Assembly: GCF_001646655.1 (NCBI RefSeq)
Contig: NZ_LPZN01000011.1
Location: 1 to 64,000, forward strand
Direction: 5' to 3'
Source of the DNA: Rhodococcus gordoniae
GTDB taxonomy: Bacteria > Actinomycetota > Actinomycetes > Mycobacteriales > Mycobacteriaceae
Length of the DNA stretch: 64,000 bases
The translations under genes and the position numbers were made by a program. The notes beneath the pieces were generated by a model, which saw only the letters and a list, made by a program, of their open reading frames with translations, was not told where the DNA came from and did no database searches. Positions 4,675 to 30,626 of the stretch are shown here, one piece after another (the stretch's first letter is position 1; each line of letters begins with the position of its first letter).

Positions 4675-7600
4675 TTACGCGAGCGTGCGTGCCATGCCGC
4701 GCTCGACGGCCGCGATGATCTGCGGCCGCAGCTCGACCGCCGGCACGATCGCGTCCACGGACCCGACCTGCTGCGCCCGCTGGATGTTGTGGATCGCCTC
4801 GAACTCGGCCGCCACCTCACCGAGCTTCTCCGACCGCACCGCGGTACGCAGCGCGGTGAGTTCGACACCCAGACGCGCCTTGTCGCCGTCCTCCGCGGCC
4901 CGCAGCTGGGCTTCGAGTTCCACGACCCGCGGATCGCTCGCGGTGCGCTTGTTGACGTCGCGGGTGAAGACGACCGCTGCCGCGGGAGCGCCACCGAGCA
5001 CGGAGGCGAACGAACCCTCCACGGCGAGGACTTCCATGTTCTCGTTCAGTGCGCCCGAGAACACCACGAAAGCACCACCGTGGTAGCGGGAGACCACGAC
5101 GAACACGATCGGACCGTCGAAGTTGACGATGGCCCGGCCGATCTCGGCGCCGTACTCGAGCTGCAGGTTGCGCAGCGACTCGGGGGAGCCGTCGAAGCCC
5201 GACAGGTTGGCGAGCACCACGAGCGGACGATTGCCGCTCGCCGCGTTGATCGCCCGCGCCGTCTTCTTCGACGACTTCGGGAACAGCGTGCCCGACGTCC
5301 ACTGATCCGGTCCGTCGGCGGGGAACCAGCCCTTGCGCGGGATCGCGCGGGACTCGATACCGATGACGCTGACGGGGATACCGCCGAGATGCGCGTCGAA
5401 CACGACCGAGGTGTCGGCGTCGGCCATGTCGGCCCACCGTTCGAGCACCGCGTGGTCCTGGTCGACCACGGAGCGCATCACCGTGCGGATGTCGAACGGC
5501 TTCTTGCGATCCGGGTTGGTCTCGGACGAGAAGATGTCGCCGACGGTGGTGAAATCGCTGGACGGATGCACGTGCGGGTACACGCACACGTTCCGGTCCA
5601 CCGGGTCGGCGGACACGGCCTTGCGCGGGAAGCGCTCGCCCGGTGCGACGTAGGCGTGGGCGTAGTGCGCGAACAGCGTCTCGATGGCAGCGCTGAGGTT
5701 GGGGGCCCAGTACTGCGCCTGGCCGTTGGGGCCCATGACGCGGTCGTATCCGCCGATACCGAAGTTGTCCTCGGCGGAGACGCCACCCGAGTAGTCGAGC
5801 GACTGCTTGCCGGTGAGCACCATGGCACTGTCCGGAGTCATGACGAGGATGCCCTTGGTGTGCATGAGCATCGTCGCCTCGGCGTTCCAGTACGGCTGCG
5901 CGCCGACGTTGATGCCGGTGACCACGACGTTGATCTCGCCGCCGTCCTGCGTGAACGTGATGATGCGACGCAGACCGCGCGACACCCAGTCCATGTTCTC
6001 GGTGCCCGAACCCATCGAGATCGTCGCGCCGGACGACAGGGCGAACCACTCGACGGGGGCGCCGAGGCTTTCGGCGAGATCGATCGCGGCGACCACGCGG
6101 GAACATTCCGCTTCCGCGACGGTGCCCAGCGCCTTGGTGGGATCACCGAACAACGCGACGCGCTTCATGCCCTCGGGATAGCGCGGGGTGGGGGTGTCGA
6201 CGACGCCGACGATCAGACCGGCGGTGTTACGGCCGTAGGGGCGGTCCACCGGCACGAGTGCGCCCTGCTCGTCGAAATCGTATTCGACGAAGCTGCCGTC
6301 GCCGCCGGTGAGCAGCGGGATCAGCTCGTACGGGTAGACGGTGCCGCGGGCGCGCGAGCGCTGCACCTTCTGGGTGTACTCGTCGAGCGGCTGCAGCGGC
6401 TCCTTCGGAGGCTCGGTGACCCGCACGATGACGCCGGCGCCGGACCGGTACGAGAAGCGCAGAGCGACCTCACGTACCGGCTCGTCGTGGCGCTCGCGCC
6501 ACGAACCGATGACGGTGATCTCCTCCAGGCCGGCACCCACGGTCAGCGGCGCGGCGTTGTTGCCGATGCGGCGCAGGTCCTCCATGTCGAGATCGACGAC
6601 GGGCCACACGTAGAGCACCACGCGGTTCGCGTCGAGACGTCGCCCACCGCGGTTCGCCTGGGCGCGGCGCATGCCGTCGAGCGAACCGGCCAGTGCGCGT
6701 TCGAAGGCCGGAAGTCCGACGATCCTGCCGGTCTCGTCGCGCTGCGGCGTCAGGTCGCGCACCTCGGCCAGCGCGATGAATCGCTCGTCGGACGGATTGT
6801 CCTGCGACACCAGGTGATACAGGTAGGTGTCCGGATTGGCGGGCAGGCGGGTGCCGTCGAAGTTCTTCAGACGCCACAGATCCAGACGCTGACCCGTGAG
6901 CGGGTGGATGTCGCGGATGTTGGTCTCCTCCGCGTATCCGGTCTCGTAGGGGCGGAAGGTGAACACGTGCTCTTCGGCGGTGTCGGTGTGGCAGACGGTC
7001 ACGGTCACGCGTCGGGCCGCACCCGTCACCGTGCGGGCGGCGAGTGCGGTGCGCAGCGCGTCCGCCTGGGCGTCGGCATCGGCCGGAGCGTCGTCCCACG
7101 CGAGATACAGGTCGATCACCAGGTTCTTCGTGTCGGGAACCGATGCCGCCGACTCCTCGACGGCGGCGAGCAGCGAGGCGAACTCGGCGTGCGGTGCCTC
7201 CGCGGAGATCAGGTACAGACGGGTGCCGCGCAGATCGAAGTTGCCGGTGACGAACTGGTGCTCGGCGACCGTGCACGAGCAGACGTCCTCGAGGGTGCGG
7301 ATCTTGTACGCCCGTCGGGTGATGACCTCGAGCAACGGACCCGGAACGGTCTCGGGACGCGTGATCTGCTGTGCGAGAAGGTCGATCAGCGGCTCGGGGG
7401 TAGCGACCAGCGACTCGATGCGCTGCGCGTAGTCCGCCGCCTGCGCATGCTCGGCGAGGTACGCGAGCGAACCGCGGACCCCGTCGTAGACCTGCTCGCG
7501 GGCCTTGCGGATCACGGGTTCCTCGAAGTAGCGGTATCGCAGGTTGCGGGCGGTGTCACCGATGACGGGGAACCGGACCTGGGTCGCGACGATCAGACGG

Positions 7601-10152
7601 TCGAGGACCTCGTTGAGTTCGTGGGAGATGCCCACCTCGGTGTCGTCGCGTTCGATCCAGCGGTCGAGCAGCGCAGTGACCACGGGAACATGGGCTTCGA
7701 TGCGCTCGAGTGCGAGGAACAGCCGGTAGACGGCCTCCTCGAGATCCGGGGTGCGATCGAGTTCGAGGACGTCGTAGTGCCGCAGGGCCCGTGCGAGGCG
7801 AGCACGGAAGCTGTCGGGCAGCCCTCCGACCTCGACGTCGAGCGACTGCAGGTAACCGTGGAAGAACTCGCGGGGGCTGTGCACCCGATCGTCGCTGTTC
7901 TTCTCGTCCTCGGTCGGGCGGTTGCGCGACAGTTCGCACACGTCGGCGAACGTCGTGAGCAGCGCCAGTTCGGCGCGGACGATATCGCACGAGTCGACGG
8001 CGCCGGAGAGCTGCTCGTAGTCGGCGATCAGGGCCGCGGTGCGCTTGGCGGACACGTCGTATCCGGTGACCAGCGCGGCCAGCGAGTCGAGGCGGGCAAG
8101 GGCGTCGGCGGCGACGTCGTCGCTCAGCGAGGGCGCCGGTGCGGCGAACTCCACCCGCTCGACGGCTTCGGTGACGACCTCCTCGACGATCTGGTCGACC
8201 CGCAGGAGCGGGGCACCCGCGTCGACCTGGGCGTTGACGACGGCCAGGATTTCGCGGACCTTCCCGGCGAAGGGGGCGCGGACCGCGGTCTCCATCTTCA
8301 TCGACTCGAGCACGACGAGGGTCTGACCGGCCTCGACCTCGTCACCGACGGCGACGGGGACCGCGACCACCACGGCGGGGGCGGGTGTGCGCACCACACC
8401 GGCCTCGTCCTGGCTGATCTGGTGGCTGATGCCGTCGACCTCGACGAGGAAGTGGGCGGGACCGGCGATCGACACCACGTTGTGGCGGTGGCCGCCGACG
8501 GTCAGACGCGACTCGTAGGCGCCGAGCCGCTCGACGTCGACGTCGAACTCGGAGGTGCCGGTGTCGACCCGGTAGCGGTGCGGACCGACCTGTCCGACGA
8601 CGAGTTCGTAGGCCTGTCCCTGGTAGCTCAGTTCGACCTTGCGTCCGACGGTGTGGCCGGCGCGCGGGCGGCCACCGCGGGCGGAGGCGAGGAAGGCGGC
8701 GCGTTCGCGGGCCTCGTCGGTGTCGTAGACGTCGACAGCGGTCGCGATGAGTGCGACGTCGGCGACCTTGGACGGTCCGGTCTCGGTGCCGGCGCCGGTG
8801 CGGTCGAGCCAGCCGGTGTCGGCGGAGGCGTCGATCACCTCGGGGCGATCGAGCAGATCGAGCAGGAACGACTTGGTCGTCGTGCCGCCGTCGAGGACGA
8901 CGGTGGTCTCGCGCAGAGCGGTGCGCAGGCGGGCGAGCGCCTCGTCACGGTCGCGGCCCCACGCGATGATCTTGGCGACCATCGAGTCGTAGTCGGGCGG
9001 GATGACGTCGCCCTGGGCGATGCCGGTATCGACGCGCAGGCCGGACCCGAGCGGGAACTTGAGCAACTGCACGGTGCCGGGAGCGGGTGCGAAGCCGTTG
9101 GCAGCGTCCTCGGCGTTCAGACGGGCTTCGACGGCGTGCCCGAACTCGCCGGGGCACTCGCCGGGCAGCTTCTCGCCGGAGGCGACGAGGATCTGCAGCT
9201 TGACGAGGTCGATGCCGGTCGTGGCCTCGGTGATGGGGTGCTCGACCTGGAGGCGGGTGTTGACCTCGAGGAAGGTGAAGATCTTCAGGTCGGGCTGGTA
9301 GAGGTACTCGACGGTGCCGGCACCGGCGTATCCGGCCGCGCGGACGAGATCCGCGGAGACCGCGCGCAGGTGGTCCGACTGCTCCTTGGTGAGCAGGGGA
9401 GAGGCCGACTCCTCGATGACCTTCTGGTTCTTGCGCTGGATCGAGCAGTCGCGCACCCCCGGGGCCCACACGTTGCCGTGCTTGTCGGCGATGACCTGGA
9501 CCTCGACGTGGCGCGCGTCGGTGACGAGACGCTCGATGAACACGACGGGGTCACCGAAGGAACGCTCGGCCTCACCCTGGGTGCGTTCGAGGGCGAGTTC
9601 GAGCTCGTCCTCCGCATAGACCTTGCGGATGCCGCGGCCGCCGCCGCCGGAGCGGGCCTTGATGATCAGCGGATAGCCGATGGCCTGCGCGTGGCGGCGG
9701 GCGTCGGCGCGGGACTCGACCGGTCCCCCGGACCACGGTGCGACGGGAACGCCGACCTTCTCGGCGAGGATCTTCGCCTCGACCTTGTCGCCGAGCAGAC
9801 GCATGGCGTCGGCCGAGGGACCGATGAAGGTGATGCCGAGGCGGGCGCAGAGCTCGGCGAAGGCAGGGTCCTCGGCGACGAAGCCCCAGCCGACCCAGAC
9901 GGCGTCGGCTTTCGCCTCGAGCAGAGCGCGCTCGAGTTCGGCGTGATCGAGGTAGGGGGTCGCCGCCGTGGTCGACGGGCGGAGGGTCACTCCTTCGTCG
10001 GCCTGACGGACGAACATCGCCCGTCGTTCGGCGTCGGTGTGCAGAGCGATCGTCCTGATGTCGTAGCCGTGCTCGGAGTTGAGCTCCCGGACTGCCCGGA
10101 TGAGGCGTACGGCCGCCTCACCGCGATTGACCACTGCGATCCGCTTGAACAT
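4675..10152 (-). CDS. Single-chain biotin-dependent acyl-CoA carboxylase (BC-BCCP-CT)
   Basis: An 1825-residue multidomain carboxylase. The N-terminal 450 residues are biotin carboxylase (MFKRIAVVNRGEAAVR; glycine-rich ATP-grasp loop RSGGGGRGIRK; EVQVIADKHG). The biotin carrier site is ESMKM with the biotinylated Lys at 619. A long, mostly helical middle region follows. The C-terminal 550 or so residues are the crotonase-fold carboxyltransferase (YGRNTAGLIVGV, SSGATISMGSG, TGINVGAQPYWNAEA). Actinobacteria usually split these functions between AccA-type and AccD-type subunits; here one chain has an order reminiscent of eukaryotic acetyl-CoA carboxylase. It makes malonyl-CoA or a methylmalonyl/longer homologue; substrate specificity is not readable. 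The ATG at 10152 matches the conserved start of the BC fold; the longer frame to 10461 is non-coding in character. Confidence 0.9.
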   Translation of the reverse strand: MFKRIAVVNRGEAAVRLIRAVRELNSEHGYDIRTIALHTDAERRAMFVRQADEGVTLRPSTTAATPYLDHAELERALLEAKADAVWVGWGFVAEDPAFAELCARLGITFIGPSADAMRLLGDKVEAKILAEKVGVPVAPWSGGPVESRADARRHAQAIGYPLIIKARSGGGGRGIRKVYAEDELELALERTQGEAERSFGDPVVFIERLVTDARHVEVQVIADKHGNVWAPGVRDCSIQRKNQKVIEESASPLLTKEQSDHLRAVSADLVRAAGYAGAGTVEYLYQPDLKIFTFLEVNTRLQVEHPITEATTGIDLVKLQILVASGEKLPGECPGEFGHAVEARLNAEDAANGFAPAPGTVQLLKFPLGSGLRVDTGIAQGDVIPPDYDSMVAKIIAWGRDRDEALARLRTALRETTVVLDGGTTTKSFLLDLLDRPEVIDASADTGWLDRTGAGTETGPSKVADVALIATAVDVYDTDEARERAAFLASARGGRPRAGHTVGRKVELSYQGQAYELVVGQVGPHRYRVDTGTSEFDVDVERLGAYESRLTVGGHRHNVVSIAGPAHFLVEVDGISHQISQDEAGVVRTPAPAVVVAVPVAVGDEVEAGQTLVVLESMKMETAVRAPFAGKVREILAVVNAQVDAGAPLLRVDQIVEEVVTEAVERVEFAAPAPSLSDDVAADALARLDSLAALVTGYDVSAKRTAALIADYEQLSGAVDSCDIVRAELALLTTFADVCELSRNRPTEDEKNSDDRVHSPREFFHGYLQSLDVEVGGLPDSFRARLARALRHYDVLELDRTPDLEEAVYRLFLALERIEAHVPVVTALLDRWIERDDTEVGISHELNEVLDRLIVATQVRFPVIGDTARNLRYRYFEEPVIRKAREQVYDGVRGSLAYLAEHAQAADYAQRIESLVATPEPLIDLLAQQITRPETVPGPLLEVITRRAYKIRTLEDVCSCTVAEHQFVTGNFDLRGTRLYLISAEAPHAEFASLLAAVEESAASVPDTKNLVIDLYLAWDDAPADADAQADALRTALAARTVTGAARRVTVTVCHTDTAEEHVFTFRPYETGYAEETNIRDIHPLTGQRLDLWRLKNFDGTRLPANPDTYLYHLVSQDNPSDERFIALAEVRDLTPQRDETGRIVGLPAFERALAGSLDGMRRAQANRGGRRLDANRVVLYVWPVVDLDMEDLRRIGNNAAPLTVGAGLEEITVIGSWRERHDEPVREVALRFSYRSGAGVIVRVTEPPKEPLQPLDEYTQKVQRSRARGTVYPYELIPLLTGGDGSFVEYDFDEQGALVPVDRPYGRNTAGLIVGVVDTPTPRYPEGMKRVALFGDPTKALGTVAEAECSRVVAAIDLAESLGAPVEWFALSSGATISMGSGTENMDWVSRGLRRIITFTQDGGEINVVVTGINVGAQPYWNAEATMLMHTKGILVMTPDSAMVLTGKQSLDYSGGVSAEDNFGIGGYDRVMGPNGQAQYWAPNLSAAIETLFAHYAHAYVAPGERFPRKAVSADPVDRNVCVYPHVHPSSDFTTVGDIFSSETNPDRKKPFDIRTVMRSVVDQDHAVLERWADMADADTSVVFDAHLGGIPVSVIGIESRAIPRKGWFPADGPDQWTSGTLFPKSSKKTARAINAASGNRPLVVLANLSGFDGSPESLRNLQLEYGAEIGRAIVNFDGPIVFVVVSRYHGGAFVVFSGALNENMEVLAVEGSFASVLGGAPAAAVVFTRDVNKRTASDPRVVELEAQLRAAEDGDKARLGVELTALRTAVRSEKLGEVAAEFEAIHNIQRAQQVGSVDAIVPAVELRPQIIAAVERGMARTLA

Positions 10153-10970
10153 ACTCGTTGCCACCGTTCTCCATGGTTTGTGCACGCATCGGGCGCGCGT
10201 CTCGAAGCTCCACCCCAATGAGGAGGACAAACTAACCGGTCCTACGTTCCACGTCTCGTGTTGGCGGCGCGAGCGGGAACATGTAGCGGTCGGCTCCTCG
10301 TGGTTGGCATGGGCATGCGTGTTCGTCGTCGATCCACCGGGCAGCATCCGCGGTGTCCGAAGGACCGTTTCGAACAGATCTTCGCAGCTACGGCCACCGG
10401 TTGCGGCGGTCACGTCCCCCAGGGCGAAGGCTCCGTTCGGATAACAGCATGGAGGAAACATGAGGGTTTGTCACGTTTCGCCTCCCGGTGGAAGGTCTCG
10501 CTGCGCCTCCTCGGCCGCAGTCTCCCACTGCCTCTCGGGCGCAGGGACTTTCGGTCGGGAGCGGGGCGCGGGAGGGGGCATCGCGCGTGAGGGCGCGGCC
10601 GGTACTGTGCAGTAACACCCATCGGTAACTTGCGGGACCGTTCGTGGCCCGCCTCGAACGACTCCTCGTTTGCGCTGGTACGCAGAGGTTTTCGGGTGCT
10701 CTGAACCGGTCCGCGATCCGGGACCGGGCACATCGTGCCGCACTCGGCCGGAAGTCCTGTGACATCCGTCACGAGATGCGAAAACGTGCAGCTTTCAACC
10801 GAACCGGGACGCGCGTGGCGATGCCCCGAATCGGGAGCGTCGGCGGTCCGGGTTCCGGGCCGGTTCCGGGCATTCCTCCGAGTCCTTGCGGAATCTGGAA
10901 CAGTGGAAGTGTGCGCCTGCGACCCGAGTCGCAGGAGCGTGTACGGCGGACGAGCCCGCGAGGAGGATCC
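10153..10970. promoter_or_regulatory. Long divergent intergenic region
   Basis: About 820 bases between the carboxylase (minus) and the coiled-coil protein (plus). I see no protein-like frame. It contains an inverted repeat TACTG-TG-CAGTA near 10603 and the CRP-like site described separately. It presumably carries the promoters and 5' leaders of both genes. Confidence 0.4.
10758..10773. promoter_or_regulatory. Possible CRP/GlxR-type operator
   Basis: The sequence TGTGACATCCGTCACG matches the CRP-family consensus TGTGA-N6-TCACA at nine of ten conserved positions. It lies about 200 bases upstream of the coiled-coil protein start. A single match in GC-rich DNA is weak evidence. Confidence 0.3.
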
Positions 10971-19425: not shown

Positions 19426-19445
19426 AAACTGTCGATCGACAGTTT
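19426..19445. promoter_or_regulatory. 20-bp perfect palindrome, probable TetR operator
   Basis: AAACTGTCGATCGACAGTTT is a perfect 20-bp palindrome between the divergent TetR gene and the first operon gene, 24 bases before the ATG chosen at 19470. Length and position are as expected for a TetR dimer site that blocks the operon promoter. Confidence 0.7.
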
Positions 19446-19469: not shown

Positions 19470-20318
19470 ATGACCGAGACCCTCGCGACCGCCACCACGC
19501 ACGCCGCTCGTGCCCACGCCCGAGCGCAGGCCGGAACCGTCACGGACGCGATGCCGATCGTCCCCGCCTCCTCCTGGCCCGCCCCGCCGAACGGCCGTGC
19601 GGCAGCGATGACCTGGGCCGAGACCGTCCCCGGCGGCCGCTACACCGGCAAGGTTCTCGCCCGCGGCACCCGCCTGCGGTTGCGGGACGTCGACGGCACG
19701 GCCTGCGCGCACGTGCTGCTCTTCCGTGCCGATGCGCCGCACGAGCGGCTCAACGTCGCCGACACCGTGAAGGTGCCCTGGCAGGCCTATCTCGGAACCG
19801 GGCACCCCCTGCTCTCCGACCAGGGCCGAGTACTCGCGACCATCGTCGCCGACACCTCCGGCCGGCACGACGCCCTGTGCGGCACCACCCATCTCGCCGG
19901 AAACACCGCGAAGTACGGAGCGGGAGAACTTCATTCGCCGTCGCCGGCCGGCCGGGAACTGTTCTCCGTCGCCGCCGCCAAGCACGACCTGCAACCGCGC
20001 GACCTGCCGCCGTCCCTGTCCTTCTTCCACGGCGTCCGTGTCGAGGAGGACGGAAGCCTCGTCAGCACCGGTAACGCCGGGCCCGGCGCCTACGTCGACC
20101 TCCTGATCCACCTGCCGGTGATCGTGCTCGTCGCCAACACCGCGCACCCGCTCGATCCCGATCCCGAGTTCACCACCGGCAGCCTGGAGGTTCTCGCCTG
20201 GCGAGCGCCCGAAGAACTGAATTCGCTGCCGAACACCGATCCCGAATACCAGCGCGCCGTCCTCAACACCGACGACGCCTGGGCCGCCGCCACGTCCGAA
20301 ACGGAGATCCGCCGATGA
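19470..20318 (+). CDS. DUF1989 protein 1 (urea-amidolyase-associated / carboxyguanidine deiminase subunit-like)
   Basis: 282 residues, DUF1989 family. Recognisable parts are ETVPGGRYTGKVLARGTRLRL, DVDGTACAHVLLF, NVADTVKVPWQAYLGTGHPL, and DTSGRHDALCGTTH with a conserved Cys/His that can hold zinc. Pairs of such proteins are encoded beside urea carboxylase genes; in guanidine-degrading operons the pair forms carboxyguanidine deiminase (CgdAB). I chose the ATG at 19470 with GGAG upstream; the in-frame ATG at 19413 lies before the operator palindrome and would put the operator inside the gene. The next gene overlaps by ATGA. The exact substrate here is inferred. Confidence 0.8.
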   Translation: MTETLATATTHAARAHARAQAGTVTDAMPIVPASSWPAPPNGRAAAMTWAETVPGGRYTGKVLARGTRLRLRDVDGTACAHVLLFRADAPHERLNVADTVKVPWQAYLGTGHPLLSDQGRVLATIVADTSGRHDALCGTTHLAGNTAKYGAGELHSPSPAGRELFSVAAAKHDLQPRDLPPSLSFFHGVRVEEDGSLVSTGNAGPGAYVDLLIHLPVIVLVANTAHPLDPDPEFTTGSLEVLAWRAPEELNSLPNTDPEYQRAVLNTDDAWAAATSETEIRR

Positions 20319-20965
20319 CCCTCACCGCAGACACCGCAGAACTCGCCCTCGTTCCCGGTCGCGTCGTCCTCGACGAGATCGTCGGACTCCGCGGACCGTG
20401 GTCGGCCGTCGTCGCCGCGGGAGACGTCCTCACGATCGTCGACCTGCACGGCAATCAGGCCGTCGACACGCTCGTCTACGACGCGCACGACACGGGCCGG
20501 CGGTACAGCGCGGCGGCCACCGTCGCCGCACAGCAGAATCTGTTCCTCACCACCGGATCCGTGCTGCGCGACTCCGAGGGCGCTCCGCTGATGACGCTCG
20601 TCGCCGACGAGGTGGGAAATCACGACACCGTCGGTGGCGCGTGCTCGCAGGAGTCGAACACCCTGCGCTACGGGCACCACACGAAGCATCAGCACGCGTG
20701 TGTCGAGAACTTCCTCATCGAGGGCGCGAAGTGGGGCCTCGGCAAGCGGGATCTCGTCTCCAACATCAACTTCTTCATGAATGTGCCCGTCGAGGCGGAC
20801 GGCACCCTCGGCATCGTCGACGGACTCTCCGCTCCCGGAAAGCGCCTCGCGATCCGCGCCGAGCGCGACGTGCTCGTCCTCGTCTCGAACTGCCCCCAGA
20901 TCAACAACCCGTGCAACGGCTTCGATCCCACGCCGGTTCGCATGATCGTCACCCGCGAGGAGTGA
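20315..20965 (+). CDS. DUF1989 protein 2 (urea-amidolyase-associated / carboxyguanidine deiminase subunit-like)
   Basis: 216 residues, paralogous to the preceding protein and translationally coupled to it (ATGA). The motifs are [20 protein letters not shown]-type turns, and the metal-binding cluster [28 protein letters not shown] and [13 protein letters not shown] with several Cys and His. In known operons this subunit and its partner hydrolyse N-carboxyguanidine to allophanate and ammonia. Both subunits are present here, so the complex is probably functional. The allophanate hydrolase expected next is absent from the window. Confidence 0.8.
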
Positions 20966-20972
20966 GCCTGCC

Positions 20973-22943
20973 ATGACCACCAAGATCGGCGTAGAACGCC
21001 CCGGAATGCTCACCACCGTCCAGGACTATCCGGGTCGCACCGGATACTGGCAGATCGGCGTACCGCCCTCCGGGCCCATGGACGACCTGTCCTTCCGTCT
21101 CGGCAACGTGGCTCTCGGCAACGACGAGGGCGCCCCCGGCCTCGAGACCACGATGGCAGGTCCCGCGCTGCGTTTCACCGAGGACACCGAGGTGTGCGTG
21201 ACCGGTGCTCCCGCCGTCGTCCGGGTCGACGGAGTCACCGTTCCGCAGTGGCGGCCCGTCACCGTTCCGGCCGGCGGACTGCTCGACGTCGGCGTCGTCT
21301 CCGGTCCCGGCCTGCGCGTCTACATCCTGGTCCGGGGCGGACTCGACGTTCCCGAATTCCTCGGCAGCGCCTCGACGTTCACGCTCGGCACGTTCGGTGG
21401 TCACGAGGGTCGTACCCTTCGCGAAGGCGACGTCCTCGTCGTGGGTGACGACCCCCTCGGTGAGAGCGCGCCCGTCCCGTCCGAACACGTGCCGGCGCTC
21501 GGCACGCGCTGGGAGATCGCGGTGACCGAAGGCCCGCACGGCGCCCCCGAGTTCTTCACCCGCTCCGACATCGACACCCTCTACGCCACCGAGTACGAGG
21601 TGCACTTCAACTCCGACCGCACCGGGGTCCGGCTCATCGGCCCGAAGCCGGAATGGGCCCGGACCGACGGCGGGGAAGCGGGGCTGCATCCGTCGAACAT
21701 CCACGACAACGCGTACTCCGTCGGTGCGCTCGACTTCACGGGCGACACCCCGATCCTGCTCGGCCCCGACGGGCCGAGCCTGGGCGGCTTCGTGTGCCCG
21801 GTGACGGTCGTCGCCGCCGACCGCTGGAAGCTCGGTCAGCTCGCACCCGGCAACACCGTCAGGTTCGTCCCCGTGAAGTCGCAGCACAGCGCGTCGCGCC
21901 GCGAACTGGGAGTCGGTCGTCGTGCAGGTCTGTCGCTGGTCGCGTCGGGCGGCGGCGACGGCGACGACGGAGTCCTGGCCCGCCGCGACGGGCACACCGC
22001 CGTCACCTACCGCCGCAGCGGCGACGACAACGTCCTCGTCGAGTACGGCGACATGACGCTCGATCTGGCGCTGCGGGCCCGCGTGCACGCCCTGCACCAG
22101 CGCCTCGAAGCGCAGCGACCTGCCGGCCTGCTCGAACTTACCCCCGGTATCCGGTCGCTGCAGGTCAAGGTCGATCCGGATGTCCTGCCGGTACCGGTCC
22201 TGCTCGGTCTGCTCGCCGAGGTCGAGGACGGTATCGGCGACAGCGACGAACTGGAAGTGCCCAGCCGTCAGGTGCGCCTGCCGCTGTCCTGGGACGATCC
22301 GGCGACCCGCGAGGCCATCCAGCGCTACATGCACGGCGTGCGGTCGGACGCGCCGTGGTGCCCGTGGAACATCGAGTTCATCCGTCGGATGAACGGCCTC
22401 GACACCGTCGCCGACGTGTTCGACACGGTGTTCGCCGCCGACTACATGGTGCTCGGACTCGGCGACGTCTACCTCGGTGCACCGGTCGCGACACCGCTCG
22501 ACCCGCGGCACCGGCTGGTCACCACCAAGTACAACCCGGCCCGCACGTGGACACCCGAGAACGCGGTCGGGATCGGCGGTGCGTATCTGTGCATCTACGG
22601 CATGGAAGGCCCCGGCGGATACCAGTTCGTCGGCCGCACCACCCAGGTGTGGAATCACCGGCACCCGCAGCCGGCCGGGCCCTTCGAGGACGGAACGCCG
22701 TGGCTGCTGCGGTTCTTCGACCGGATCTCCTGGTATCCCGTCGACCCCGGGGAACTGCTCGATCTGCGCGCCGATCTCGCGGCCGGTCGTGGCGGGGGAG
22801 TGGAGATCACCGACGGGACCTTCTCGCTGGCAGACCACCGGAAATTCCTCGCCGACAACACATTCTCGATCGCGGAGTTCCAGGCGACCCAATCCGTCGC
22901 CTTCGCGCAGGAGCGGGCACGGTGGAAGGCGACCGGCGCATGA
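20973..22943 (+). CDS. Carboxyltransferase-only urea carboxylase homologue (AHS2-AHS1 / KipA-KipI fusion)
   Basis: 656 residues, exactly the size of the carboxyltransferase part of urea carboxylase. The first half is the AHS2/PxpC domain ([50 protein letters not shown]). The second is AHS1/PxpB ([32 protein letters not shown]). A C-terminal tail follows ([20 protein letters not shown], then [10 protein letters not shown]) of the kind that precedes the biotin carrier in full urea carboxylases. Both the biotin carboxylase and the biotin carrier domain are missing, and no gene for them lies in the operon. It must borrow them from elsewhere, or act without biotin as PxpBC does. It starts seven bases after the previous stop and overlaps the next gene by ATGA. 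Confidence 0.85.
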
Positions 22944-23707
22944 CGACCGCCGAACGGATCCGGCTCGCGGGAACCCGGTTCGAGCGAACCCTGCTGGCGC
23001 GTCCGGGCACCGAACCCGACACCACCACCCGGGTCACCTGGGTGCAGGGCGAGAAGTTGTACTGCGATCTGAGACAACCCGCCTCACTGCCTGTGGTGAC
23101 GGCCTCGACCGCGAACGACATGAACTTCGACGATCTCGTGGCACTCGCGACGCAGGACGGTTTCGCAGGCCGGTTGCTCGACCGCGGCGATCACGTCGAG
23201 TGGGAACGCGCCGTGTCGTTCCACCCGCTCGGTCCGACACCCGACGCCGGCAGTCTGGCCCTGCTCGACGCGGACACTATCGTCGAACACGGTGTGTACG
23301 AGGACTACACGGAACACTGGCACACCGCCGGCGTCTCGTCCGACATCGAGGAGTATCTGCTCGAGGACATCGACACCGGGGCGACCGCGGTACTCGTGCG
23401 GGTGGGGGAGACCTTCGCGTTCGCGCGCGGCCGCGACCGCACCCCCGGATCCGGTTCTCTGCTCGAACGCATCAGGGGGGCGGCGACACTCCGCGAGGCC
23501 CGCGCAGTGCTCGACTGCGAGGTCGCCGTCGGCCGAGTGTGCGCCGGCCGATGGAACATCACCGCATCGACTCTCCCGTACTGGATCGGGGACTACCTCG
23601 ACCCCGCTTTCGGAGACGAGATCCACACGAGCGACGTCACATTCGGCGGAACACCCGTCACGAGGCGGTGGCGTCCGCTCGACCCGAACCTCAGGACGGA
23701 ACCATGA
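22940..23707 (+). CDS. Unknown protein of the DUF1989/carboxyltransferase operon
   Basis: 255 residues, ATGA overlaps at both ends, so it is a full member of the operon. It is rich in beta-strand and aromatic residues ([49 protein letters not shown]), suggesting a soluble beta-barrel or lipocalin-like fold. The pattern of a WxQ...YxDLRxP strand followed by DGFAG and an acidic DYTExW motif looks conserved, but I cannot assign a family. There is no signal peptide. It might be a chaperone, a substrate-binding component or an enzyme of the pathway. Confidence 0.6.
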
Positions 23708-24735
23708 CCTTCACCAGCATCCCCGTCGTCGACGTACACGCACTGGTCTCCGCCGACGACAGCGGACGGGACGCAGTCGTCGAGGAACTCGGGCGTGCCG
23801 CCCGCGAGGTCGGTTTCGCTCAGATCGTCGGGCACGGTATCGATCCCACCCTCATCTCGGGACTGAAGACAGCCGCAGAACGCTTCTTCGCACTGCCCGA
23901 CGAAACCAAGATGTCGGTCTACATAGGCACTTCGTCGAACCACCGCGGCTATGTGCCGCCGGGTGAGGAGGTGTTCGCCGGTGCCACACCCGATCACAAG
24001 GAAGCGTTCGATCTGTCCATCGATCTTCCCGCCGGCGATCCGGACTATCTGGCCGGCAATCCACTGCTCGGACCGAACCAGTGGCCCGAACTGCCGGACT
24101 TCGAGAAGCCCGTGGGGGCGTACTACGATGCCGTATTCGGTCTGGGCCGTGTGCTTCTGAGGGCTTTCGCCGAGACGCTCGGTGAGCCGTCCGACCTGTT
24201 CGATCGGTATGTGACGACACCGCCGGCGCAGTTGCGGATGATCCATTATCCCTACGATCCCAGTGCATCCGACCGCCCCGGTATCGGCACTCACACCGAC
24301 TACGAAATGTTCACGCTGCTCCTGCCCACGGCGCCGGGGCTCGAAGTGGTCAACGCCGACGGAGACTGGATCGAGGTCCCCTACCGCGACGATGCTTTCG
24401 TACTGAATATCGGTGACCTGCTGGAGATCTGGACGAACGGTGTGTTTACAGCGACGTCACATCGGGTGCGTAAGGTTGCTCAGGAGCGTTACTCGTTCCC
24501 CTTGTTCTTCAACGTCGACTACGACACCCGGGTCGAGCCGCTGGAGAGGTTCGTCGACGCGGACGGACCACGATACGACGGAGTGACGGCCGGCGAACAT
24601 CTGTTCGCGCAGACTGCTCAGAGCTTCACCTATCTCCGCAACCGGCTCGCCTCCGGCGAGATCGTTCTTCCCGACAATGCCCGCCCCCTCTATTCGCTCG
24701 GACGCGAAGCCCAACGCAGCGCTCCTGCCGTCTGA
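23704..24735 (+). CDS. Isopenicillin-N-synthase-like Fe(II)/2-oxoglutarate oxygenase
   Basis: 343 residues of the 2OG-Fe(II) oxygenase family. The N-terminal DIOX_N part has AREVGFAQIVGHGID. The metal triad is His197-Thr-Asp199 in GIGTHTDYEMFTLLL plus His253 in TATSHRVRKV. The co-substrate motif RYSFPLF gives Arg262-x-Ser264. Members hydroxylate small molecules; bacterial ethylene-forming enzyme and some plant homologues act on guanidino compounds and can release guanidine. In an operon with DUF1989 and urea-carboxylase-like genes, an attractive reading is hydroxylation next to nitrogen of a substituted guanidine or urea so that it falls apart. That is inference. It is coupled to the previous gene by ATGA. 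Confidence 0.8.
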   Translation: MTFTSIPVVDVHALVSADDSGRDAVVEELGRAAREVGFAQIVGHGIDPTLISGLKTAAERFFALPDETKMSVYIGTSSNHRGYVPPGEEVFAGATPDHKEAFDLSIDLPAGDPDYLAGNPLLGPNQWPELPDFEKPVGAYYDAVFGLGRVLLRAFAETLGEPSDLFDRYVTTPPAQLRMIHYPYDPSASDRPGIGTHTDYEMFTLLLPTAPGLEVVNADGDWIEVPYRDDAFVLNIGDLLEIWTNGVFTATSHRVRKVAQERYSFPLFFNVDYDTRVEPLERFVDADGPRYDGVTAGEHLFAQTAQSFTYLRNRLASGEIVLPDNARPLYSLGREAQRSAPAV

Positions 24736-24756
24736 CCTTCTCCATACGGAGCTGCC

Positions 24757-26238
24757 ATGATCATCACCGGTGTTGCCGTGTGCCTCGTCGTACTTCTCGG
24801 GGCCGGCTTCTACTCCACCCGCAAGGTCCGCGGACAGGCGGGCAACTTCTTGCTCGCCGGTCGCTCGCTGGGCGCACCCGTTCTCGCCGTCCTGCTCATG
24901 TCCCAAGTCATCGACTCCAACGCGACCCTCGGTTCGGCCGACCTCGCGGCCGGATTCGGATTCTGGGCCGGCGCGGCGATGCCCCTCGGCGTCGCGCTCA
25001 GTGTTCTGCTCGTCGGAATCTTCTTCGCGAAGCGCCTGCGGGCGACCGGCGTGGTGACCCTGCCGGAGTTCTTCGCCCGGCGCTTCGGGCGCGGCACCGA
25101 GATCACCGCCTCCGTCCTCACCGTGGGCAGCTTCGGCATCCTCCTCGCCGGCAACCTCGTCGCGCTGGCCTACCTCCTGCAGTACTTCCTCGGTCTGAAC
25201 TACACCGCTGCGGTACTGGTGATCATCCCGTTCGTGCTCGCCTACACGATGGCCGGCGGCATGTTCGCGAGCGTCTACACCGGCATGGTCCAGTTCGCCG
25301 TGATGGCCGTCGGCATCGTCTCCCTCCTCGCATGGGTGGCCCTCGGTCCCGGCTTCACCCACGGTGACGGCCTCGGCATCGGTGATCTCGGGCAGCTCAC
25401 CGACCCGGCGCAGGGCGCCGCGATCAACTGGGCCACGATCGTCGCTCTCGGACTCGGCAACCTCGTCGCGATCGACCTGATGCAGCGTGTGTTCTCCGCC
25501 AAGTCGCCGCACGCGGCGCAGCGCGCCTGCTTCTCCGCGGCGACCGGCATTCTCCTGCTGTGCGTGCCGCTCTCGTTCGTCGCTCTCGCCGCGGTCTCGA
25601 TCGTCGGTGACAGCGCTGCCGACGCACCGATCCTCTACGTCCTGCTCGGGCAGTACACCCCTCAGTGGTTGTCGATCCTGGTCCTGTCCGGTCTGGTCAC
25701 CGCGTCGCTGACCACCATCAGTGGGGTGCTGCTGTCCACCGCGACGGTCCTGGTGCGCAACGTCTTCCGAGTCGGCGGCGAGAACGCCGCGATGTCCTCG
25801 GACGTCATGAAGGCCACGCGTCTGCTCATGCTGCCCATGGCGGCCTTCGGCGCGCTCGTCGCCCTGCGCGTTCCGCAGACGGGCATCCTTCTCACCCTCA
25901 CCTTCGACCTTCTGCTCGCCTCGCTCGTCGTTCCGTTCATCCTCGGGCTGTTCTGGTCGCGTGGGGACGGGCGTGCCGTGGCCGCCGCCGCGATCGCCGG
26001 GATCACGGTGCGCGCCGGCTTCTTCGTCCTCACCCCGACGATCTACGGCGTCGACAACACCCTGCTGTACATCCCGAACTCACTGGTCACCTCGTCCGTC
26101 GACGGCTGGACCACCTTCATCGGATTCCTGGTGTCGCTGGTCGCCTACGTGACGGTCGCGCTGGTGCGACGCCCCGTCCGCGCGGTCACCGTTCCGGAGC
26201 CGGCCGTCCTGCCTGCGAAGCAACCGGTCGCGGTGTAG
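24757..26238 (+). CDS. Sodium:solute symporter family transporter
   Basis: 493 residues, last gene of the operon, with GGAG six bases before the ATG. It has 12-13 hydrophobic segments and SSS-family signatures: FLLAGRSLGAPVLAVLLMSQ near the start, VTLPEFFARRFG, AYTMAGGMFASVYTGMVQFAVM, and VTASLTTISGVLLSTATVLVRNVF. SSS transporters use the sodium gradient to import small polar solutes such as amino acids, urea, pantothenate or nucleobases. As the only transporter in the operon it should bring in the pathway substrate. Repeat B1 just downstream probably ends the transcript. Confidence 0.85.
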   Translation: MIITGVAVCLVVLLGAGFYSTRKVRGQAGNFLLAGRSLGAPVLAVLLMSQVIDSNATLGSADLAAGFGFWAGAAMPLGVALSVLLVGIFFAKRLRATGVVTLPEFFARRFGRGTEITASVLTVGSFGILLAGNLVALAYLLQYFLGLNYTAAVLVIIPFVLAYTMAGGMFASVYTGMVQFAVMAVGIVSLLAWVALGPGFTHGDGLGIGDLGQLTDPAQGAAINWATIVALGLGNLVAIDLMQRVFSAKSPHAAQRACFSAATGILLLCVPLSFVALAAVSIVGDSAADAPILYVLLGQYTPQWLSILVLSGLVTASLTTISGVLLSTATVLVRNVFRVGGENAAMSSDVMKATRLLMLPMAAFGALVALRVPQTGILLTLTFDLLLASLVVPFILGLFWSRGDGRAVAAAAIAGITVRAGFFVLTPTIYGVDNTLLYIPNSLVTSSVDGWTTFIGFLVSLVAYVTVALVRRPVRAVTVPEPAVLPAKQPVAV

Positions 26239-30487: not shown

Positions 30488-30570
30488 AGGACTCGACACG
30501 GGGTGCCGGACACGGCTGAGAGAACACCCGTCGAACCTGATCTCGATTATGCGAGCGAAGGGATGCCGAG
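30488..30570 (+). promoter_or_regulatory. TPP riboswitch aptamer (THI element)
   Basis: The conserved blocks of the thiamine pyrophosphate aptamer are all present in order: ACACGGGGTGCC, GGCTGAGAGAACACCCG, GAACCTGATCTCGATTATG and GCGAGCGAAGGGA. GCTGAGA and the GAACCTGATC core, which grip the pyrimidine ring and pyrophosphate, are intact. It lies 66 bases before the start of the SDR gene and reads toward it, so TPP should lower expression of the following two genes. Confidence 0.93.
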
Positions 30571-30572
30571 CC

Positions 30573-30626
30573 GGCGACAGGCCTGAGGTCTGTCGCCCTC
30601 ACGCACCCTTCCCGACACAGGGAAGG
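30573..30626 (+). promoter_or_regulatory. Riboswitch expression platform with sequestered ribosome-binding site
   Basis: Two hairpins follow the aptamer: GGCGACAG (30573-30580) with CTGTCGCC (30590-30597), and CCTTCCC (30607-30613) with GGGAAGG (30620-30626). The right arm of the second hairpin is the purine-rich ribosome-binding site of the SDR gene, so control by masking translation initiation is likely. There is no T-tract. Confidence 0.6.

Follow-up and report, generated by a model that had tools for sequence, protein, structure and literature searches.

The locus analyzed here has two close counterparts among described systems. In Vreelandella boliviensis, the guanidine carboxylase operon encodes MgdH, a methylguanidine hydroxylase, and MgdL, an N-(hydroxymethyl)guanidine lyase (UniProt A0A265DXP8 and A0A265DXW6; Sinn et al. 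2025, PMC12508155). MgdL has been modelled as a beta-barrel, and its residues D49 and R51 are reported to be essential (PMC12508155). In Actinobacteria, an AmtR-regulated operon of permease, urf1, urf2, 'urea carboxylase' and amidase genes has been described, for example MSMEG_2184-2189 (PMC4222082); in Mycobacterium smegmatis, AmtR represses this operon and GlnR is needed for its nitrogen control (PMC4222082, PMC3662644, PMC4617892). The M. smegmatis 'urea carboxylase' was published as part of urea metabolism, in a report that calls this function speculative (PMC4222082). Here, we describe a six-gene operon in a stretch of 64,000 nt of Rhodococcus gordoniae (NZ_LPZN01000011.1), hereafter the window, whose source genome is labelled G000. 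The operon probably serves the use of methylguanidine and guanidine as nitrogen sources under an AmtR-type repressor, with a guanidine-type carboxylase that consists of the carboxyltransferase (CT) part and would receive carboxybiotin in trans.

In the proposed pathway, the symporter P0007 would import methylguanidine or guanidine, the MgdH-like oxygenase P0006 would hydroxylate the N-methyl group using O2 and 2-oxoglutarate, and the MgdL-like protein P0005 would act as a lyase on the hydroxylated intermediate, N-(hydroxymethyl)guanidine. Guanidine would then be carboxylated by the CT-only protein P0004, with a carboxyl group taken from carboxybiotin on a protein encoded elsewhere; the two DUF1989 proteins, P0002 and P0003, would deiminate carboxyguanidine to allophanate, from which an unlinked allophanate hydrolase would release two ammonia. 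A preliminary description of this DNA had proposed that the symporter imports an N-substituted guanidine, that the oxygenase hydroxylates it so that a C-N bond breaks, and that the remaining proteins process the guanidine. That mechanism is largely right and agrees with the gene neighbourhoods and with MgdH/MgdL, for which most of it had already been published in a different bacterium (PMC12508155). We infer every substrate and reaction assigned to the Rhodococcus operon, above all the supply of carboxybiotin in trans.

The new element of the locus is its carboxylase, a CT-only enzyme of guanidine type that is conserved and widespread; a stand-alone guanidine carboxyltransferase was not seen described in the literature examined, in which no search was worded for such an enzyme. 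Against the urea carboxylase model TIGR02712, P0004 matches only positions 447-1110 of 1201 and scores 969 bits, below the curated cut-off of 1304, and it contains neither a biotin carboxylase (BC) nor a biotin carboxyl carrier protein (BCCP) domain. It shares with guanidine carboxylases (BC-CT-BCCP) the CT domain but not the flanking parts, and the preliminary description was correct in finding no full carboxylase here. Guanidine carboxylases have D at the place of residue 1330 of the Kluyveromyces lactis enzyme and a conserved D1584 (PMC11410670), and K1605 is the likely general base (PMC5770610). Our alignment places D254, D498 and K519 of P0004 at these three positions; urea was rejected as its substrate, the 1330 residue being D and not the N of urea carboxylases.

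The equivalents of D1330, D1584 and K1605 are present in 38/38 members of the CT-only clade, P0004 included, and in 18/18 full-length enzymes with D at 1330 (D-type). Conservation extends well beyond the active site: of the 219 columns that do not vary across the 18 full-length D-type enzymes, 201 show the same residue in 97% or more of the 38 CT-only proteins, the G054 protein and two N-type enzymes being left out of this count. At residue 399 of P0004 (window 22167-22169), H in 18/18 full-length D-type enzymes is replaced by K or R in 36/38 CT-only proteins, a change that is possibly the mark of an altered contact with BC or BCCP.

In a maximum-likelihood tree of 59 CT domains, the 38 CT-only proteins form one clade (support 100/99), which adjoins with moderate support the full-length enzymes of G034, G224, G328, G329 and G237 and lies within a larger full-length D-type set. 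Loss of both BC and BCCP is the simplest reading of this tree. Adding 10 more distant proteins (69 rows) revealed a second CT-only clade of 11 proteins (100/100), found at loci L112-L121 and L055 and classed as CT-only by the lack of a BC/BCCP match in those loci. All 11 carry M at the 1330 place, which possibly points to another substrate, and all 11 adjoin UAAP2 and allophanate hydrolase genes, with a permease within the stretch covered in 8/11; for this clade, loss or original absence of the biotin parts may both fit, the tree being unrooted. Two rows labelled 'mix' (tails of 97 and 114 residues), which have a BC domain and a carrier motif unmatched by the pattern, were treated as full-length enzymes. 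With a limit of E 1e-120, 59/298 genomes of the order encode a relative of P0004, whether or not that relative is full-length; loci from 20 and a further 10 of these 59 genomes were newly added to the comparison, next to a few already included. Truncation or mis-assembly in a single strain was rejected, given the 38 CT-only relatives in one clade and the 11 in the second.

A carboxyltransferase without biotin parts poses the biochemical question of its carboxyl source. Among 29 CT-only loci searched (19 + 10), only L044 has a BC/BCCP gene, about 8 kb away. G000 has six BC-bearing places, none of which is a dedicated urea-type protein (Table 1). The 1928-aa protein, 9 kb upstream of the operon, was rejected as a dedicated partner, having its own CoA-type carboxyltransferase and the central region of acetyl-CoA carboxylase (ACC); the alpha subunits of L057 and L058 were rejected as well, each adjoining a CoA-type carboxyltransferase-like frame (L057:3330-4922 and L058:2407-4059, judged by eye). 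By elimination, the BC-BCCP protein at C93, which we take to be AccA3, or a subunit of its type, most likely serves P0004 in trans. AccA3-type subunits are common to several carboxyltransferases. We suggest tentatively, as a proposal falling somewhat short of an even chance, that the guanidine carboxylase discarded its own BC and BCCP and now relies for carboxybiotin on the alpha subunit of the acyl-CoA carboxylase used in lipid synthesis. If true, one carboxybiotin pool would be shared by two unrelated carboxyltransferase folds, and nitrogen scavenging would be tied to fatty-acid metabolism.

The 5-oxoprolinase subunits PxpB and PxpC use ATP and combine CT_A_B and CT_C_D domains in the same fold, likewise without BC or BCCP. 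By analogy, P0004 could be a biotin-free, ATP-driven enzyme that makes carboxyguanidine, or another DUF1989 substrate, on its own through carboxyphosphate or phosphorylation. The near absence of BC/BCCP genes from the CT-only loci and the existence of two separate CT-only lineages would suit such an enzyme. P0004, however, is far closer to the CT of urea carboxylase than to PxpC or PxpB (969 bits versus 124 and 38, the latter two below their cut-offs of 500 and 146), has other partner genes, retains the same active site as biotin-dependent enzymes and shows no ATP-binding domain by Pfam. We regard a biotin-free mechanism as unlikely and retain carboxybiotin supply in trans as the preferred reading.

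P0005, encoded directly after P0004, has no match in Pfam or NCBIfam at the thresholds applied. When it was aligned with 11 homologues, D43 and R45, a D-x-R motif, were invariant in 12/12 rows, and other invariant residues include W34, Q36, W88, E116, E125 and W127. An AlphaFold2 model built from 12 sequences is beta-rich (predicted local distance difference test, pLDDT, 89.5), with D43/R45 in strand 40-46, W34/Q36 in strand 31-36 and E125/W127 in strand 124-132; the spacing of these residues fits positions that would face inward in a predicted barrel. The modelled beta-rich fold and the D-x-R motif are those expected of an MgdL. The preliminary description was right to call this protein beta-rich but not to call it unknown, for it is likely a lyase for the hydroxylated intermediate. 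A Foldseek comparison of the model with the PDB gave no good match, the only hit below E 0.001 being yeast YLR301w (3rby; E 5.6e-4, template modelling score 0.50), and P0005 had no useful match among PDB sequences. Searches of plasmids with P0005 and with its G020 homologue returned 0 matches, and a contig search with P0005 returned one relative, in Rhodococcus sp. CH91.

P0006 has the Fe-binding HxD...H motif of its superfamily, with HTD at 197-199 and SH at 252-253 (H253), and adjoins genes of a guanidine carboxylase pathway, as MgdH does. By motif and context, P0006 and P0005 look like MgdH and MgdL. In the oxygenase tree (duplicates and matches of <250 residues left out; in one further search, matches of <900 bases were left out), the closest branches to the window oxygenase are those from G329 and G020, and the three stand apart from a second clade (89/92). 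The G329 operon has the order UAAP1, UAAP2, full-length guanidine-type carboxylase, allophanate hydrolase, P0005 homologue, oxygenase and symporter, its P0005 homologue and oxygenase being 40% and 68% identical to those of the window. Its hydrolase and P0005 homologue form one open frame of 819 aa without a stop between them (L111:11537-13996), although the joined frame may come from misread bases where the two parts meet, or may contain a separate internal start (ATG at L111:13253).

The oxygenase and P0005 could nevertheless act on another N-alkyl compound, such as methylurea, N-methylhydantoin/creatinine products or arginine-like guanidines of the kind used by ethylene-forming enzyme (EFE) or plant homoarginine-6-hydroxylases, leaving only the core for guanidine. 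EFE and the clade-23 enzymes belong to the same superfamily and are reported to free guanidine from arginine or homoarginine (PMC12186494). Moreover, the second oxygenase clade (G023, G034, G061, G070 and G129; L107, L108, L109, L025 and L061) has isochorismatase-fold and metallo-beta-lactamase (MBL)-fold genes among its readable frames, with an amidohydrolase in G061 and G129 and an Asp/Glu/hydantoin racemase-like gene in G061. This alternative is weakened by the grouping of the window oxygenase with those of G329 and G020, the G329 pair lying in a guanidine operon and being fused to allophanate hydrolase. It is weakened further because hydroxylated arginine or homoarginine is reported to decay spontaneously (PMC12508155), which would leave a conserved lyase with no task. 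We consider another substrate improbable for the window's pair, and methylguanidine is preferred. The second clade has P0005-like neighbours in 4/5 genomes and lies near genes for an ABC transporter of oligopeptide type or for its binding protein (several names given by eye); perhaps it demethylates another N-methyl compound.

The arrangement of the operon is itself conserved. Our gene-neighbourhood comparison covered 18 genomes of the genus, the window's included. The order proposed beforehand holds, with all six genes on the plus strand and the regulator gene divergent, and it is complete, regulator included (regulator-UAAP1-UAAP2-CT-P0005-oxygenase-symporter), in eight other genomes of the genus; a ninth, G005, has CT-P0005-oxygenase-symporter, with frame breaks, in a locus cut by the contig end. 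The arrangement is therefore not due to chance. In the nearest genome, G008, the six operon proteins are 95-99% identical and the regulator 75% identical to those of the window. The genes had been called overlapping, which is true of three of the five junctions (4 bases each, P0005 starting over the stop of P0004) but not of the other two, which are gaps of 7 bases (UAAP2 stop to P0004 start) and 21 bases.

P0005 is encoded in 10/18 genomes of the genus, and the remaining eight keep the core without it. Three of these (G010, G012 and G017) have UAAP1-UAAP2-CT-symporter without the oxygenase/P0005 pair, although a remnant of the oxygenase is left in G017; an APC permease takes the symporter's place in G003 and G015, and G007, G009 and G013 combine the core with a permease and allophanate hydrolase. 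Because eight genomes keep the core alone, we read the oxygenase and P0005 as accessory to a guanidine core, with which the symporter goes. A symporter beside the DUF1989 pair and carboxylase, without the oxygenase pair, occurs not only in G010, G012 and G017 but also in G224, G328, G323, G285, G062 and G267. The accessory pair is arranged differently elsewhere: G023 has an oxygenase and a P0005-like gene about 8 kb from a permease-DUF1989-CT-hydrolase operon on the same contig, G034 has a P0005 homologue in a DUF1989/carboxylase locus and an oxygenase that adjoins allophanate hydrolase, and G020 has a cluster of regulator (36% identical to P0001), symporter, oxygenase and P0005 together with a permease-UAAP1-UAAP2-CT-hydrolase operon elsewhere.

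Among solved structures, P0001 is closest to AmtR (5e57, E 1.1e-54) together with 5dy1/5dy0/5dxz, 5mqq and 6gy3. The palindrome between the regulator and the operon is probably an AmtR operator, judging from its sequence; it is the sole match in the window at up to 3 mismatches, 100 shuffles gave 0 matches, and the form CTGTC-N4-GACAG is among the best palindromes in 16/22 regulator-operon gaps (14/14 of the genus and 2/8 others). An AmtR-family protein with a conserved palindrome ahead of DUF1989 and carboxylase genes is the arrangement of an AmtR regulon. The first operon gene probably starts at 19470; an alternative, longer UAAP1 frame from 19413 would span the palindrome.

Once the oxygenase pair is set aside, the remaining core matches the 'urea carboxylase' operon reported to be under AmtR control in Actinobacteria (PMC4222082). 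Both share the regulator family, and in both a 'urea carboxylase' gene lies next to a pair of small genes, taken, by their description only, as a P0004-like carboxylase and a DUF1989 pair; in contrast to MSMEG_2184-2189, the window has an SSS symporter instead of a permease, an added oxygenase/lyase pair and guanidine-type residues. This suggests that the M. smegmatis AmtR/GlnR-controlled operon, described in 2013, may serve guanidine; urea and amino acids were reported to be without effect on AmtR binding, urea failing to release the repressor (PMC4222082). With V. boliviensis, the locus shares a 2-oxoglutarate oxygenase and a small beta-barrel-type D-x-R protein beside cgdAB and a guanidine carboxylase, whereas Gd-I/Gd-II riboswitches, an ABC importer, a full carboxylase and a linked hydrolase there are matched here by an AmtR-type repressor, an SSS symporter, a CT-only carboxylase and an unlinked hydrolase (PMC12508155). 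Under the present assignment, the methylguanidine pathway published in 2025 would also operate in Rhodococcus and its relatives, where control and uptake differ.

Both DUF1989 proteins score above their NCBIfam cut-offs, as expected of a CgdAB pair, and by sequence the pair is carboxyguanidine deiminase-like. The earlier statement that allophanate hydrolase is missing does not hold beyond the operon: its absence is ruled out by an unlinked gene of G000 that scores above the NCBIfam cut-off (G000:C51:240076-241695). A search of the 19 kb surrounding this gene returned no carboxylase, and its neighbours look ABC-transporter-like by eye. CT-only genes adjoin allophanate hydrolase in 18/29 loci searched (12/19 + 6/10), a count that does not include the eight complete-order loci, in whose genomes the best hydrolase lies away from the operon. 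A full-length urea carboxylase above the cut-off is present in 11/18 genomes of the genus; G000, G002 and G012 have none but all three encode the hydrolase, as one would predict if CT-only enzymes supply it. That P0004 is a degenerate or regulatory remnant beside a full-length enzyme that carboxylates, as those 11 genomes might suggest, is highly improbable given the lack of such an enzyme in G000, the conserved columns and active-site residues of the CT-only clade, and the urea-type N at 1330 in the two aligned full-length enzymes of the genus (G008 and G016, beside allophanate hydrolase).

Several observations weigh against the methylguanidine pathway with trans carboxybiotin. Unlike V. boliviensis, the window has no guanidine riboswitch at Rfam gathering scores. 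P0005 is rare, occurring in 13/61 relatives (E 1e-3), in 3/43 of those outside the genus at the same limit and, by profile search at E 1e-6, in 5/396 genomes of the phylum, the window's included, and it is missing from 8/18 genomes of the genus. Its assignment as an MgdL-like protein draws on motif, type of fold and genomic context, and a single genome shows its fusion to the hydrolase. Relatives of the pair occur, too, in 18-kb stretches without DUF1989 or carboxylase genes (G061, G129 and G070), and the family is therefore not confined to methylguanidine. Bare carboxyltransferases, with D or M at 1330, are not uniform in substrate. Finally, the AccA3-type donor is a candidate reached by elimination, and a small 171-aa frame with a biotin/lipoyl domain (G000:C93:21139-21333) is another.

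Table 1. Features of the operon region (window coordinates) and BC-bearing places of the source genome G000.
Feature	Place	Strand	Basis or remark
AmtR-family TetR regulator P0001	18609..19298	-	TetR_N; solved AmtR relatives; start coordinate approximate
Predicted AmtR operator, perfect palindrome AAACTGTCGATCGACAGTTT, 20 bp	19426..19445	.	Palindrome scan and comparison of gaps
UAAP1-type DUF1989 protein P0002, putative CgdA/B-like carboxyguanidine deiminase subunit	19470..20318	+	TIGR03425, 295 bits (cut-off 206)
UAAP2-type DUF1989 protein P0003, putative carboxyguanidine deiminase subunit	20315..20965	+	TIGR03424, 331 bits (cut-off 285)
CT-only guanidine-type carboxylase P0004, 656 aa, CT_A_B + CT_C_D (AHS2-AHS1)	20973..22943	+	Domains, alignment, tree
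Putative MgdL-like N-(hydroxymethyl)guanidine lyase P0005, 255 aa, D43-x-R45	22940..23707	+	Motif, AlphaFold2 model, G329 fusion
MgdH-like Fe(II)/2-oxoglutarate oxygenase P0006, 343 aa	23704..24735	+	DIOX_N + 2OG-FeII_Oxy, tree, motif, PDB relatives
SSS-family sodium:solute symporter P0007, presumed (methyl)guanidine importer	24757..26238	+	PF00474; context
Fused 1928-aa acyl-CoA carboxylase-like protein	4678..10461	-	BC, biotin domain, ACC central region, carboxyltransferase domain
1170-aa pyruvate-carboxylase-like protein	G000 C22		Named by size and place
AccA3-like BC-BCCP protein, 596 aa, without own carboxyltransferase domain	G000 C93		Near ACC epsilon and Maf genes
Alpha subunit beside carboxyltransferase-like frame	G000 C37		
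Alpha subunit beside AtuA and carboxyltransferase-like frame	G000 C56		
Fused 1071-aa BC protein	G000 C52		

Three further observations concern the surroundings of these genes. A thiamine pyrophosphate (TPP) riboswitch at window 30489-30580 on the plus strand, above the Rfam gathering score, is the sole riboswitch match in the window. Paraburkholderia sprentiae has an oxygenase (L065:8093-8980; 58% identity with P0006) ahead of UAAP1/2, a full carboxylase and atzF, in a stretch with no P0005 match; its start is overlapped by a xylose-isomerase-like TIM-barrel gene. The UAAP2-type protein of the window also shows similarity to one domain of trimethylamine N-oxide demethylase (PDB 9q59; 76 bits against a cut-off of 1100), another enzyme of N-methyl chemistry.

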